The notes beneath the pieces were generated by a model. The model worked only from the letters and a program-made list of their open reading frames with translations. It made no database searches and had not been told where the DNA came from. Positions 17,414 through 51,394 of a stretch of DNA of 64,000 nt are shown here, one piece after another. The translations under genes and the position numbers were made by a program. Origin of the DNA: Bacteroidota bacterium (GTDB lineage Bacteria > Bacteroidota > Bacteroidia > Flavobacteriales > Weeksellaceae); contig JAFDZI010000022.1 of the NCBI GenBank assembly GCA_018266955.1, forward strand, positions 62,001 to 126,000. The letters are read 5' to 3'. Every line of letters begins with the position of its first letter. The stretch's first letter is position 1.

Positions 17414-17427
17414 TTCTTTAAGATTTA

Positions 17428-17510
17428 AGATGTTAGAAGGCAAAAGATAGGTAAAAATCAGATTATGTGAAAATCAATAATCTGATTTCTAACTTTTAAC
17501 TTCTATATTA
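17428..17510. repeat. heptad-periodic hairpin between rpmD and rplO
   Basis: The 100-base junction contains a perfect 10-bp inverted repeat (17457-17466 with 17477-17486, loop 10). The flanks read in sevens: GATTTAA, GATGTTA, GAAGGCA, AAAGATA, GGTAAAA on the left; CTAACTT, TTAACTT on the right. The arms are partly complementary beyond the core, so the mRNA would form a long imperfect stem. Confidence 0.75.
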
Positions 17511-17513
17511 AAA

Positions 17514-19566: not shown

Positions 19567-19610
19567 TTTTCTATTTTAAATTATTGGTTTATAATAATCA
19601 GTTTTGAGAA

Positions 19611-19676
19611 GTGGAAAGAGAAAAGATTAAAGAGTAAAGATCGAAATCTTTTCTCTTTATTCTTTTTCTTTTATCT
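19611..19676. repeat. heptad-periodic hairpin between rpsN and rpsH
   Basis: Perfect 14-bp inverted repeat (19615-19628 with 19645-19658), loop 16 bases. The whole element reads in sevens: GGAAAGA, GAAAAGA, TTAAAGA, GTAAAGA on the left; CTTTTCT, CTTTATT, CTTTTTC on the right. It lies in the 146-base rpsN-rpsH junction; most neighbouring junctions are under 20 bases. Confidence 0.8.
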
Positions 19677-19712
19677 ACTAATCAACTTGATTATCTCGAT
19701 TGTACAAAATTG

Positions 19713-21724: not shown

Positions 21725-22150
21725 TTAAAGAGGTTTAACAAAATCGTTAGCAACTACAAACTTAGTTACTACAGGAAGTTTTTGAGCAGCCAATCGAAGA
21801 GCTTCTTTAGCTACATCGTAAGGTACACCTCCTATTTCGAACATTACTTTTCCAGGTTTTACTACGGCTACCCAATATTCTACAGCACCTTTACCTTTAC
21901 CCATCCTTACTTCGGCTGGTTTTTTGGTAATTGGTTTATCTGGGAAAATTTTGATCCATAGCTGACCTTCTCTTTTCATATATCTTGTCGCTGCAATACG
22001 GGCAGCTTCAATTTGTCTTGCTGTGATCCAAGCTCCATCGATTGCTTTGATTCCGAAAGTACCGTAAGCCAATTGATGTCCTCTGTTGGCGTTACCTTTC
22101 ATCTTCATTTTATGAACTCGACGAAACTTAACTCTTTTTGGTTGTAACAT
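21725..22150 (-). CDS. rplP: 50S ribosomal protein L16
   Basis: A 141-residue L16 that helps position A-site tRNA. It begins [10 protein letters not shown] and has [12 protein letters not shown]. It follows rpsC after a 102-base gap filled by a heptad-repeat element. Confidence 0.97.
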
Positions 22151-22155
22151 AATCT

Positions 22156-22250
22156 TTAGATGTTAGATGTTAGATGTTAGATGTTAGATCAATTTTAAAT
22201 CAGTTCTTGTAACGGAAGTTCTAATTTCTAATTTCTCGGTTCTAACTTCT
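22156..22250. repeat. heptad tandem/inverted repeat between rpsC and rplP
   Basis: Four exact tandem copies of TGTTAGA (22161-22188) and a partial one on the left; on the right (about 22218-22252) TTCTAAT, TTCTAAT, TTCTCGG, TTCTAAC, TTCTGAT. GTTAGA is the complement of TCTAAC, so the two arrays can pair as a seven-base-periodic stem around a central segment of about 30 bases. Confidence 0.8.
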
Positions 22251-22252
22251 GA

Positions 22253-22993
22253 TTAATTATTGTTATTATTTCTTCTAGGTCTTCTATCTCCTCCTCTTTC
22301 GTTTCTATCGTTTCTTCCAGAGTTGGATTTTTTCTGTTGTTGTCCTACAAGTGGTGTAAGGTCTCTTTTACCGTACACTTCACCTTTCATGATCCATACT
22401 TTCACACCCAATCTACCATAAGTAGTGTGTGCTTCTGCCCAATGGTAGTCGATATCGGCTCTGAAAGTGGACAATGGGATTCTTCCTTCTTTGAAAGACT
22501 CACTTCTTGCCATTTCTGCTCCGTTCAAACGACCAGAGATCATTACTTTTATTCCTTCTGCTCCCATTCTCATGGTAGATGCAATTGCCATTTTTACAGC
22601 TCTTCTATAAGAGATTCTGTTTTCAATTTGTTTTGCAATACTTTGAGCAACTAGGATGGCGTCTAATTCAGGTCTTTTGATTTCAAAAATGTTGATTTGT
22701 ACTTCCTTACCGGTTAGTTTTTTCAACTCTTCTTTTAACTTATCAACCTCTTGACCACCTTTACCGATGATTAATCCCGGTCTTGCAGTAGTGATGGTTA
22801 CAGTAACTAATTTTAAAGTTCTGTCGATATAAATTCTAGAGATACCTCCTTTAGATAATCTAGCTTCAAGATATCTTCTGATTTTGTAGTCTTCAGCGAT
22901 ACGGTCTCCGTAATCGTTTCCACCAAACCAGTTAGAATCCCAACCTCTGATGATTCCTAATCTGTTTCCAATTGGATTTGTCTTCTGTCCCAT
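22253..22993 (-). CDS. rpsC: 30S ribosomal protein S3
   Basis: A 246-residue S3 with a KH domain ([15 protein letters not shown]) at the mRNA entry, and a C-terminal domain with R-M-G-A-E-G-I-K-V. It ends in an Asn/Arg-rich tail. It is 8 bases after rplV. Confidence 0.97.
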
Positions 22994-23405: not shown

Positions 23406-23684
23406 TTATCTACTTCCTTTATTTTTATTACCACCGTGACCTCTGAAAGATCTTGTCGGAGAAAATTCGCCTAACTTATGACCCACCATGTTTTCGGTTA
23501 CATAAACAGGGATAAAAGATTTCCCATTGTGTACTGCGATGGTTTGTCCTACAAAGTCCGGAGAGATCATGGATGCTCTGGACCATGTTTTAATAACAGT
23601 CTTTTTGTTTGCTTCTATATTCGCTTGAACCTTCTTATCTAAAGAATGATGGATGAAAGGTCCTTTTTTAAGTGATCTTGCCAT
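23406..23684 (-). CDS. rpsS: 30S ribosomal protein S19
   Basis: A 92-residue S19 of the 30S head ([20 protein letters not shown]). Two bases after rplB. Confidence 0.97.
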
Positions 23685-23686
23685 AA

Positions 23687-24508
23687 TTATTTTCTTTTAG
23701 ATAGGATGTAACGGTTAGATGCTTTGTTTTTCTTTCTTGTTTTGTACCCTTTAGCTGGTTTACCATTTCTGGATCTTGGGTGACCTCCTGAAGATCTACC
23801 TTCACCACCACCCATTGGGTGATCTACTGGGTTCATTACTACAGCTCTGGTTCTTGGTCTTCTACCTAACCATCTGCTTCTACCCGCTTTACCGGATACT
23901 GTTAACTGATGGTCTGAGTTGGAAACCGATCCTATCATCGCCATACATTCTGTAAGGATCATTCTAGATTCTCCAGAAGGCAATTTGATGATGGCGTATT
24001 TACCATCTCTTGAAGTTAATTGTGCAGAAGATCCTGCAGATCTTGCTAGGATAGCTCCTTGCCCTGGCTTCAATTCGATACAAGAAATTACAGTACCCAA
24101 AGGAATATTTTTCAATTTCATTGCATTTCCTACATTCGGCTCTACGCTGTCTCCGGAAACGATTTTTTGATCTACTTTAATTCCGTTTGGAGCGATAATG
24201 TATCGCTTTTCTCCGTCTGCATATTCTACTAATGCGATAAATGCAGTTCTGTTCGGATCGTACTCTACAGTTTTTACAGTCGCTTCAACATTGGCTTTGT
24301 TTCTCTTGAAGTCGATAATTCTGTATTTCTTTTTGTGTCCACCTCCGGTGTAACGCATGGTCATTTTACCTGTTTGGTTACGACCACCTGACTTTTTAAT
24401 ACCAACGGTTAGAGATTTCTCTGGTTTGTTGGTAGTAATTTCTTCAAAGTTGTTTACAACTCTGAATCTCTGTCCTGGGGTGATAGGTTTTAATTTTCTA
24501 ACAGACAT
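23687..24508 (-). CDS. rplB: 50S ribosomal protein L2
   Basis: A 273-residue L2 essential for subunit joining and peptidyl transfer. The [14 protein letters not shown] segment holds the conserved His of the peptidyl-transferase area. It follows rplW after a 91-base gap with a GCTTAAA-type hairpin. Confidence 0.98.
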
Positions 24509-24540
24509 TACTATTGTTTATAATTATAATTAATTTGCTT

Positions 24541-24597
24541 TATGCAGTAAGCTTTAAGCATGAAGCGTAGGACTTCTCGCTTAAAGCTTACTAATTT
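24541..24597. repeat. heptad-periodic hairpin between rplW and rplB, related to the groESL element
   Basis: Perfect 14-bp inverted repeat: arm 24546-24559 pairs with 24579-24592, loop 19 bases with an inner GAAG/CTTC. The element reads in sevens (AAGCTTT, AAGCATG, AAGCGTA ... GCTTAAA, GCTTACT). GCTTAAA and GCTTAC also open the array at 51360-51394 beside the four-helix-bundle gene, linking the two loci. Confidence 0.8.
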
Positions 24598-24599
24598 AT

Positions 24600-24887
24600 T
24601 TATGCTGAAAAAATATCGATTACTTCGCCTTCGGCTAGTTTTACGACTGCTTTTTTCAATTTGTTGGTTTTCCCAACTTGAAGTCCTTTTTTGGTGTATT
24701 TCGAAGAAACCTTTGGTGCATAAACCATAGTATTTACATCGGATACCTTAACACCATAAGCTGCTTCTACCGCGTTTTTGATTTGGATTTTATTCGCTTT
24801 TGTATTAACCAAAAAGCTGTAAGTTCCTCTCAAATCTGTAAGGTAGTTTGCTTTTTCTGAAATTACCGGTTTGATGATTACTGACAT
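24600..24887 (-). CDS. rplW: 50S ribosomal protein L23
   Basis: A 95-residue L23 at the tunnel exit, the docking site for trigger factor and SRP. It begins I-I-K-P-V-I-S-E-K and has the T-K-A-N-K-I-Q-I-K-N-A-V-E motif. Three bases after rplD. Confidence 0.97.
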   Translation of the reverse strand: MSVIIKPVISEKANYLTDLRGTYSFLVNTKANKIQIKNAVEAAYGVKVSDVNTMVYAPKVSSKYTKKGLQVGKTNKLKKAVVKLAEGEVIDIFSA

Positions 24888-24890
24888 GAT

Positions 24891-25520
24891 TTATTTTTTT
24901 AAGATTTCTGTGAATTTATCAACTGCACCTTCAAAGAAAACGATTTCGCCTGCATTCACTAAATCATAAGAAGAAATTTCGTTATAATTTAACACTCTTG
25001 TTTTAGGCAAGTTTCTTGAAGACAAAAATACATTCTGATTAGCTTCTGCTAGGATGAACAAAGACTTCTTACCATTCAGTTCCAATGCATTTAATACATT
25101 GATGAATTCTTTAGTCTTAGGAGCGTTCATGCTCATATCCTCCATAACTTTAATGCTATTTTCTCTCATTTTTTGAGAAAGAACAGATTTTTTTGCTAAT
25201 CTTTTTAATGCTTTATTCAATTTGAATCTGTAATCTCTTGGCTTTGGTCCAAATACTCTACCTCCACCTCTGAAAGTTGGCGATTTAATATCCCCGTATC
25301 TTGCAGATCCAGATCCTTTTTGTTTTTTAAGCTTTTTAGTAGAAGCTGTAATTTCGCTTCTTTCTTTAGACTTATGCGTTCCTTGTCTTTGTGCAGCAAG
25401 GTATTGCTTTACTTCTAAGTAAACCGCGTGTTGGTTAGGCTCAATTCCGAATACAGATGCATCTAACGAAACTTTTCTTCCGGTTTCTTTTCCTAAGGTA
25501 TTTAATACTACTAGTTCCAT
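24891..25520 (-). CDS. rplD: 50S ribosomal protein L4
   Basis: A 209-residue L4. Its loop (residues about 45-95, G-T-H-K-S-K and G-S-G-S-A-R-Y-G) reaches into the exit tunnel. In many bacteria L4 represses its own operon through the leader; here the leader before rplC is strongly structured. The start overlaps rplC by 10 bases. Confidence 0.97.
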
Positions 25521-29785: not shown

Positions 29786-30298
29786 TTCCTAAGGAACATT
29801 TAACATTCGTCTTTCCAATCAAAATACAAAACAGATACTGTTCCTACGGAAGATTTAGGCTTCGCAACGGAACGCAAAATATCATTTTTATATGCTACAC
29901 AGATATTGTTCCTACGGTACATTAACCATCGCTCCCATATAAAACCATTTGTAAAATCTTTTAGAAAATTAAATATTGTCAAAAGATTGGAATTTGAGTA
30001 AAGCTACTACATCGACAAATGTTCCGTAGGAACAACATCTGCGTAGTAAAAATTGCAGTTGAAGATTTGGTGTTCCGTAGGAACACTATCTACATTGGTG
30101 CCATAAAATTAATCTGTACCAATAGTTGAAAATCCAGTAGTTTATTGCACTAAGAAATTCTCACTTAGAAAATGGTACTGAATTTAACTTTGCCTAAGTT
30201 TGGAACTTTGGCAAAGTTGATACATCGATAAATGTTCCGTAGGAACAACATCTAAGTAGTATTAATTGCAGTTGAAGATTTGGTGTTCCGTAGGAACA
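29786..30298. repeat. array of REP-like palindromes
   Basis: Seven short palindromes share the core TTCC-n3-GGAA: 29787-29797, 29841-29851, 29909-29920 (imperfect), then four perfect copies of TGTTCCGTAGGAACA at 30020-30034, 30071-30085, 30233-30247 and 30284-30298. They lie in a gene-free stretch (29655-30591). Such palindromes are the hallmark of REP elements, usually moved by a RAYT transposase elsewhere; none is in this window. Confidence 0.75.
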
Positions 30299-30433
30299 CT
30301 ATCTACATTGGTGACATAAAATTAATCTGTACTAATAGTTGAAAATCCAGTAGTTTATTGCACTAAGAAATTTTCACTTAGAAAATGGTACTGAATTTAA
30401 CTTTGCCTAAGTTTGGAACTTTGGCAATGTTCA
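30009..30433. repeat. tandem duplication, unit 213 bp, two copies
   Basis: Unit 1 starts at about 30009 and unit 2 at 30222, with only a few differences. Each unit carries two of the REP-like palindromes and ends with the same segment (about 30196-30213 and 30409-30426). No credible reading frame is present. The rest of the 940-base gene-free stretch (29655-30008, 30434-30498) shows nothing else I recognise. Confidence 0.85.
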
Positions 30434-49328: not shown

Positions 49329-51001
<1,673 letters not shown>

Positions 51002-51008
<7 letters not shown>

Positions 51009-51358
51009 AGATTTATTTTTTGTTTTAATTTATATATTTTGCTTTTGATGTGATTTATTTTCTCAAAAAGCTGAACCGAATCAGTTTCATTAATTAAATT
51101 CAAATCCTGACATAGCATCAACAAATATTCTGTTTCGCAGGCCGAACCTAATGCTATATTGAGAAAATGATTAAACTCTTTATCTGAAGCTCTTCCACAT
51201 CCTTCACTAATATTGGTTGGAATTGATGTACAAGCTCTACGCAACTGAGAAGTGATAGTAAATTGCTCTTCTTTCGGAAAAAGTTTAGAAATAGTATAAA
51301 TCTCCAAAACCAATTGGTGACTTAATTGCCATACTTCGTATTTTCTAAAGTCTCTCAT
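51002..51358 (-). CDS. four-helix-bundle protein of the S23/IVP family
   Basis: A 118-residue all-helical protein of the family first found in intervening sequences of 23S rRNA and related to Avd of diversity-generating retroelements. Marks: Y-E-V-W-Q-L-S-H-Q-L-V near the N-terminus, Q-L-R-R-A-C-T-S-I-P-T-N-I-S-E-G-C-G-R, and A-L-G-S-A-C-E-T-E-Y-L. The family forms basic pentamers thought to bind nucleic acids; a cellular role is not established. It lies between groS and groL, bracketed by inverted heptad arrays. Confidence 0.88.
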
Positions 51359-51359
51359 T

Positions 51360-51394
51360 GCTTAAAGCTTACGGCTTAACGCATAATGTGTTAT
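51360..51394 (+). repeat. heptad array on the groS side of the four-helix-bundle gene
   Basis: Plus-strand reading: GCTTAAA, GCTTACG, GCTTAAC, GCATAAT, GTGTTAT, four to five heptads directly before the start codon of the inserted gene; the last one runs into the groS stop. GCTTAAA and GCTTAC recur in the hairpin between rplW and rplB. Confidence 0.8.

Follow-up and report, generated by a model that had tools for sequence, protein, structure and literature searches.

The hairpin in the gap between the ribosomal protein genes rplW and rplB probably represents the gene-less form of an element that recurs inside operons across the Bacteroidota. Elements of this class have inverted short-word arms (mostly 7 nt) and would be transcribed to give a stem resembling that of an rRNA intervening sequence (IVS). 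In the gene-carrying form, the predicted loop holds a gene for a four-helix-bundle protein of the TIGR02436/S23p family. That these elements form one class, whose members may or may not contain the gene, is well supported. Genome comparison establishes how they are built and polarised, links the arm word to the protein clade, and reveals gene-carrying, decayed and gene-less states alternating at a single site. The window analysed is a stretch of 64,000 nt from a Bacteroidota bacterium of the family Weeksellaceae (contig JAFDZI010000022.1, positions 62,001 to 126,000); all coordinates refer to this window unless another contig is given, and genomes and loci used in the comparisons carry G and L numbers.

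The hairpin occupies 24537..24592 on the minus strand. It is preceded by rplW (L23; 24600..24887, minus strand), a 95-aa open frame named from gene order and sequence, and followed by rplB (L2; 23687..24508, minus strand), a 273-aa open frame. The pairing arms lie at 24546-24565 (AGTAAGCTTTAAGCATGAAG) and 24573-24592 (CTTCTCGCTTAAAGCTTACT), with an extra heptad at 24537-24545; 18 of the 20 arm positions are paired across a loop of 7 nt, and folding as RNA gives -27.9 kcal/mol (z = -6.05). The gap was located in relatives using the conserved rplB start MSVRKLKP as a landmark, and rplW is single-copy in 146 of 148 family genomes. Six other genomes folded at this site have differing sequences of comparable stability (z -4.1 to -5.4), giving a range of -4.1 to -6.1 over the seven genomes. 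Additional arrays are present in the gap of G014, G028, G005 and G011, while a short leader alone joins rplW to rplB in most family genomes, including 22 further genomes. The gene-carrying form was not seen at this site in relatives, and the hairpin contains no ORF, has no second copy in the genome, and shows no clear target-site duplication at its ends when its sequence and the empty sites of relatives are inspected. Readings of the hairpin as a terminator or as a known Rfam family were dropped after searching, as no intrinsic terminator (GC-rich stem plus T run) was found in 23600-25000 and the Rfam search returned one tRNA and sub-threshold microRNA matches only, with no family for the hairpin.

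The same heptads appear in the insert between groES and groEL. This insert contains a TIGR02436/PF05635 (S23p, 23S_rRNA_IVP) four-helix-bundle gene (51002..51358, minus strand) encoding 118 aa (TIGR02436, E 6e-38; PF05635, E 9e-39). Solved relatives of the protein are 2gsc and 2rld, and 2GSC is described in the sources cited as a pentamer of four-helix bundles homologous to Avd (PMC10053308, PMC4990558). In the sense of the gene, the 5' arm lies on the groES side (51357..51386, minus strand) and holds GCTTAAA-GCTTACG, starting at 51360; the 3' arm on the groEL side (about 50963..50996, minus strand) has 80% pairing with 51357-51386 over 30 nt. The initial annotation had pointed to two heptads common to this groES-side arm and the rplW-rplB hairpin, and this observation is confirmed. 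The 13-nt word GCTTAAAGCTTAC occurs three times in the window, in both arms of the hairpin and in the groES-side arm, where 0.12 occurrences are expected with at most one mismatch, and it is found at no further locus of the genome. Similarly, exact copies of the 12-mer GCTTAAAGCTTA are confined genome-wide to the hairpin and the groESL insert, and counts allowing one mismatch show only a slight excess over a reversed-pattern control (20 vs 14).

The meaning given to this sharing is another matter. The annotation had taken the exact match as a sign that the hairpin is a gene-less form of the groESL element; membership of one class stands, whereas the match as proof of a particular link does not. 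Stretches of 10-16 nt are identical between GC-type arms even where both the sites and the genera differ, with 16 nt in common between the rplW-rplB hairpin of G026 and the groESL arm of G007, which belong to different genera, and such sharing indicates a common vocabulary instead of a copy event. Exact word sharing was consequently rejected as a lineage marker. In the four genomes that have both kinds of arm, within-genome sharing takes rank 5 among 24 permutations. Gene-less hairpins, of which 56 were compared, match the gene arms of their own genome no better than expected (p = 0.20), so that no signal of general within-genome matching was obtained. The own-genome arm match at two curated sites gives p = 0.02, a value that includes the discovery case. 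The two shared heptads thus reflect class membership and common vocabulary, and they do not establish copying from, or service by, the groESL element.

Inverted arrays are a general property of the gene family. All five PF05635 genes of the genome sit between protein-coding genes and are bounded by inverted short-word arrays, with a different word each time (TTTATTC, GCTTAAA, GTTTGGT, the six-base AATCTT, and GTAAAAA). Among 96 unique Flavobacteriales genes, the match between a gene's own left and right flanks has a median of 20, compared with 10 for mismatched flanks. Using a null in which the left flank is compared with the reverse complement of other loci's right flanks, the match exceeds the 95% point in 80 of the 96 loci and the 99% point in 62. 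The arms mainly have a period of 7: matches reach 0.553 and 0.540 at lags 7 and 14, whereas most other lags give about 0.27-0.31. Some arms have a period of 8 or 6. A phylum-wide sample gives the same pattern, with 20 of 27 loci above the 95% point of the null. Thus, the possibility that other four-helix-bundle genes lack such arrays, which the annotation had named as grounds for abandoning its proposal, is not borne out, as nearly all have arrays, each with its own word. The arms are also polar: a G-rich 5' arm is combined with a C-rich 3' arm at 77 loci vs 3 in the Flavobacteriales set and 18 vs 0 in the phylum sample, and both neighbours are co-oriented with the four-helix-bundle gene in 77 of 87 loci, although the loci are related and the counts are not independent. 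No published description of heptad-armed TIGR02436 loci was found in the openly searchable literature.

The arm word follows the protein clade. Protein pairs of less than 40% identity have an arm similarity of about 0.205, which rises to 0.30, 0.37 and 0.45 at 50-60, 60-70 and more than 70% protein identity for pairs with no flanking gene in common. The mean arm similarity of 48 different-site pairs with at least 55% identity is 0.362 (p = 0.0005, arms permuted among loci). Over all pairs, arm word and protein identity are only weakly related by a Mantel test (rho 0.096, p 0.014), since the signal is confined to pairs above about 50% identity; below 60% identity the test is not significant. 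In the protein tree, whose resolution is limited as the proteins are short, the groESL genes, all GC-armed, fall in one clade with two other GC-armed genes, from G031 and G013, whose loci do not adjoin groES, and a single member of this clade, in G029, has a different word. Other protein clades have other words, such as TGTACAATGTA, AAGAACCAAGA and GTTTAAAG. The agreement between word and clade at different sites, together with the GC arms found with one clade away from groESL, indicates that arms and gene travel as a unit.

Gene-carrying, decayed and gene-less states occur at the same site. In the groES-groEL gap, a gene with GC arms is present in G000, G005, G007, G026, G033, G034, G035, G097 and G151, the last two being judged by gap length and first codons only. 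The GC-armed gene of G018 has a broken frame, and in G004 a gene remnant without its N-terminal half lies between GC arms. In G012, G031 and G071 the GC arms enclose no gene; G001, G002, G028, G074 and others also lack the gene but have arms of the word TACAT; and several genomes have no arrays in this gap. Both gene-carrying and gene-less states are found within three genera (G000 vs G001/G002; G033 vs G074; G097/G151 vs G071/G027). The thiolase gap behaves similarly, with an AAAGA-type-armed gene in G000, G006 and G010 and gene-less hairpins of the same AAAGA word class in G038 and G036. These orthologous sites, the remnant in G004 and the shared vocabulary bear out the part of the original proposal that placed hairpin and gene-carrying insert in one class. 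Several further arrangements were observed at these and other gaps. The groES-groEL gaps L090 and L101 (G013 and G020) are framed by inverted CCCCCTTTCCCCCAAAGGGG-type repeats, a further kind of stem at this site. At thiolase loci L180, L182 and L183 (G006, G020 and G008), four-helix-bundle genes flank the acetyl-CoA acetyltransferase gene on both sides, each with its own arm word, and the thiolase site is also occupied in other families of the order (L193, L200). The metH gap contains a four-helix-bundle gene in G000 and G008; in G002 and G013 (L204, L205) the frame present there begins with MGQSLNKIYVHLVFS, resembles a Y1 transposase and has its own palindromes.

Gene-less hairpins are also present elsewhere in the ribosomal protein operons of the window, all on the minus strand. 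The rpsC-rplP gap holds one with the word TTAGATG / TCTAACT (22146..22254; RNA fold z -2.45), the next S10/spc gap, rpsN-rpsH by gene order, holds one with the word AAAGA / TCTTT (19603..19680; z -2.96), and a hairpin with a TTAGAAATCAGATTAT stem lies near rplO, in the rpmD-rplO gap by gene order (17415..17512; z -5.98). Lag-7 arrays number 69 in 502 kb of the genome, compared with 19-33 at control lags, and 155 in the S10 region of 45 genomes, compared with 25-51; array number rises with PF05635 gene number (rho 0.42, p = 0.004, phylogeny ignored). Gene-less words resemble the gene arms of the family (0.689 vs 0.572 +/- 0.011 with heptad columns permuted; 60 permutations, p at its floor). Read in the operon sense, gene-less hairpins of the S10 region have the polarity of gene arms in 38 cases vs 7, many of which represent one conserved site and are non-independent. 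Relatives throughout the family, even those without a PF05635 gene, have the rpsC-rplP hairpin (TTAGATG / TCTAACA) at the same position and with the same class of word, and it may have a host function. Long arrays of other kinds were also noted. On contig C57 of the same genome, L241 (157-527) has a very long GGTGAATGGTGAGT array, some 174 nt in length, whose inverted partner is about 110 nt off, and no four-helix-bundle gene noted. On its contigs C14 and C32, L229 (38-170) and L237 (10717-10893) have long direct heptad arrays of TTACCAT and GGAAAAG, respectively, with no inverted partner close by.

These observations suggest a mechanism in which the element is a transcribed stem that would be tolerated between co-transcribed genes by folding away, and that is probably cut or trimmed by RNase III by analogy with the IVSs of 23S rRNA. 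Gene-less copies may arise by loss of the gene from the loop or by re-arming of the site, after which slippage and replacement of heptads would cause the arms to drift. The protein's likely binding target is the stem that carries the word of its clade. The polarity of the arms relative to the gene alone does not separate RNA from DNA, but both forms are found in operons and begin with the G-rich arm, which makes RNA the likely level of action, as for the 23S rRNA IVSs. It is unlikely, though conceivable, that this goes further, with each S23p clade reading its stem's heptad word at the RNA level, maintaining the match between the arms, and acting on gene-less hairpins of that word elsewhere.

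The reading of the rplW-rplB hairpin as a gene-less member of this class has to be weighed against the retention of rpsC-rplP heptad hairpins, upstream of rplP, in G015, G023 and G024, all of which are without a PF05635 gene, as well as against the lack of a gene-carrying form at rplW-rplB and of an above-chance match between gene-less and gene arms of one genome. Heptad hairpins might instead have come first, with tandem heptads born by slippage and inverted by template switching in tolerated operon gaps, and the gene as a passenger. This scenario accommodates hairpins in genomes without the gene, the many heptad arrays of the genome that have no inverted partner, and a report that heptads are the commonest short repeats of many bacterial genomes (PMC4679880). 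It is rather unlikely, since the arm word tracks the protein clade at different sites and GC arms accompany one clade in G031 and G013 away from groESL. Alternatively, the hairpin could be a host RNA element that serves in processing of the mRNA or insulates translation of rplW and rplB from each other, with its link to the gene family arising only from convergent repeat growth. At this site, seven genomes maintain pairing despite differing sequences, which is consistent with such a role, as is the hairpin upstream of rplP, whose position and word are conserved family-wide with or without PF05635 genes. However, most family genomes are without a rplW-rplB hairpin, arguing against a conserved function at that site, and the words match the gene-arm vocabulary; a host element is accordingly given a low probability.

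A strict MITE relationship, in which the hairpin is a copy of the groESL element that is mobilised or bound in trans by the GC-armed protein of the same genome, is the strict form of the initial proposal. The restriction of the exact 13-nt word to these two loci fits this relationship, as does the pairing of a GC rplW-rplB hairpin with an intact, broken or remnant GC-armed groESL gene in G000, G004, G007, G018 and G026. It is nevertheless improbable: sharing of 10-16 nt occurs between genera and within-genome sharing is unremarkable, G001 and G002 have a GC-type rplW-rplB hairpin yet a gene-less TACAT groESL gap, and G005, G033, G034, G035, G097 and G151 have the GC-armed gene with no GC hairpin in their rplW-rplB gap. 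As a rule, there is also no support for trans action of the genome's own protein, given that the 56 gene-less hairpins show no own-genome excess and that hairpins persist in G015, G023 and G024, which lack PF05635. Finally, it is very improbable that the hairpin is of the REP/REPIN type, a DNA element mobilised by a Y1 (RAYT) transposase. The genome does contain two Y1_Tnp genes, one beside the thiolase locus, but their flanks carry a different palindrome (TTCCGTAGGAA / GCTCCGTAGGAGC; CCGTAGG) and not heptad arms. A cluster of TTCCGTAGGAA / TTCCTACGGAA palindromes, of the class flanking the two Y1 (RAYT-like) genes (L376, L377), lies at 29823-30304 of the window and draws sub-threshold Rfam microRNA matches.

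Membership of the heptad-armed class offers a route to the function of the TIGR02436/S23p proteins, which are widespread and structurally solved and whose best-known home is an rRNA intervening sequence usually deemed a selfish curiosity. In Bacteroidota, nearly all sampled genes of this family lie in repeat-armed stems within ordinary operons, and gene-less stems of the gene-arm vocabulary occupy ribosomal-protein operons. As the word also follows the protein lineage, the protein's own stem is the obvious candidate ligand, making function testable by binding and RNA-cleavage assays.

Several known systems share features with these elements. For a comparison with MITEs, the rplW-rplB hairpin has the exact 13-nt match to the groESL element in this genome, sharing is equal between genera, and there is no general within-genome excess; the encoded protein belongs to no known catalytic family, and TIGR02436 carries no functional assignment. 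REP/REPIN sequences and their RAYTs (PMC3116915) are likewise small intergenic inverted-repeat hairpins with a sequence class tied to a protein clade and gene-less copies elsewhere; in contrast, the heptad-armed element has no Y1 transposase and a low copy number per word. The TAACTGA heptamers of Beggiatoaceae, cyanobacteria and some Bacteroidetes are also intergenic 7-nt repeats near start codons, but as presented in that account they are direct repeats of one fixed word with no associated four-helix-bundle gene (PMC4679880). The Avd protein of diversity-generating retroelements is described as homologous to the PF05635 structure 2GSC (PMC10053308), and no reverse transcriptase or template/variable repeats were seen in the flanking frames beside the genome's five PF05635 genes.

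The heptad-armed elements share with the 23S rRNA IVSs the terminal inverted repeats that form a stem, and the groESL insert resembles the long form of the IVS in having an S23p/PF05635 ORF within the loop. There are also short IVSs, of the Salmonella type, that contain no ORF. In Coxiella burnetii, the 23S rRNA IVS is described as a PF05635-type ORF between stem-forming terminal inverted repeats that decays in place, and as being cut by RNase III (PMC4990558). In contrast to the IVSs, the heptad-armed elements lie between protein-coding operon genes and not in the 23S rRNA gene, and their arms are tandem heptads with a clade-specific word. By location, the heptad-armed element is not a member of the 23S rRNA IVS family. 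The rplW-rplB hairpin is best filed as a gene-less member of the heptad-armed class, whose gene-carrying form resembles an IVS that has moved out of rRNA.
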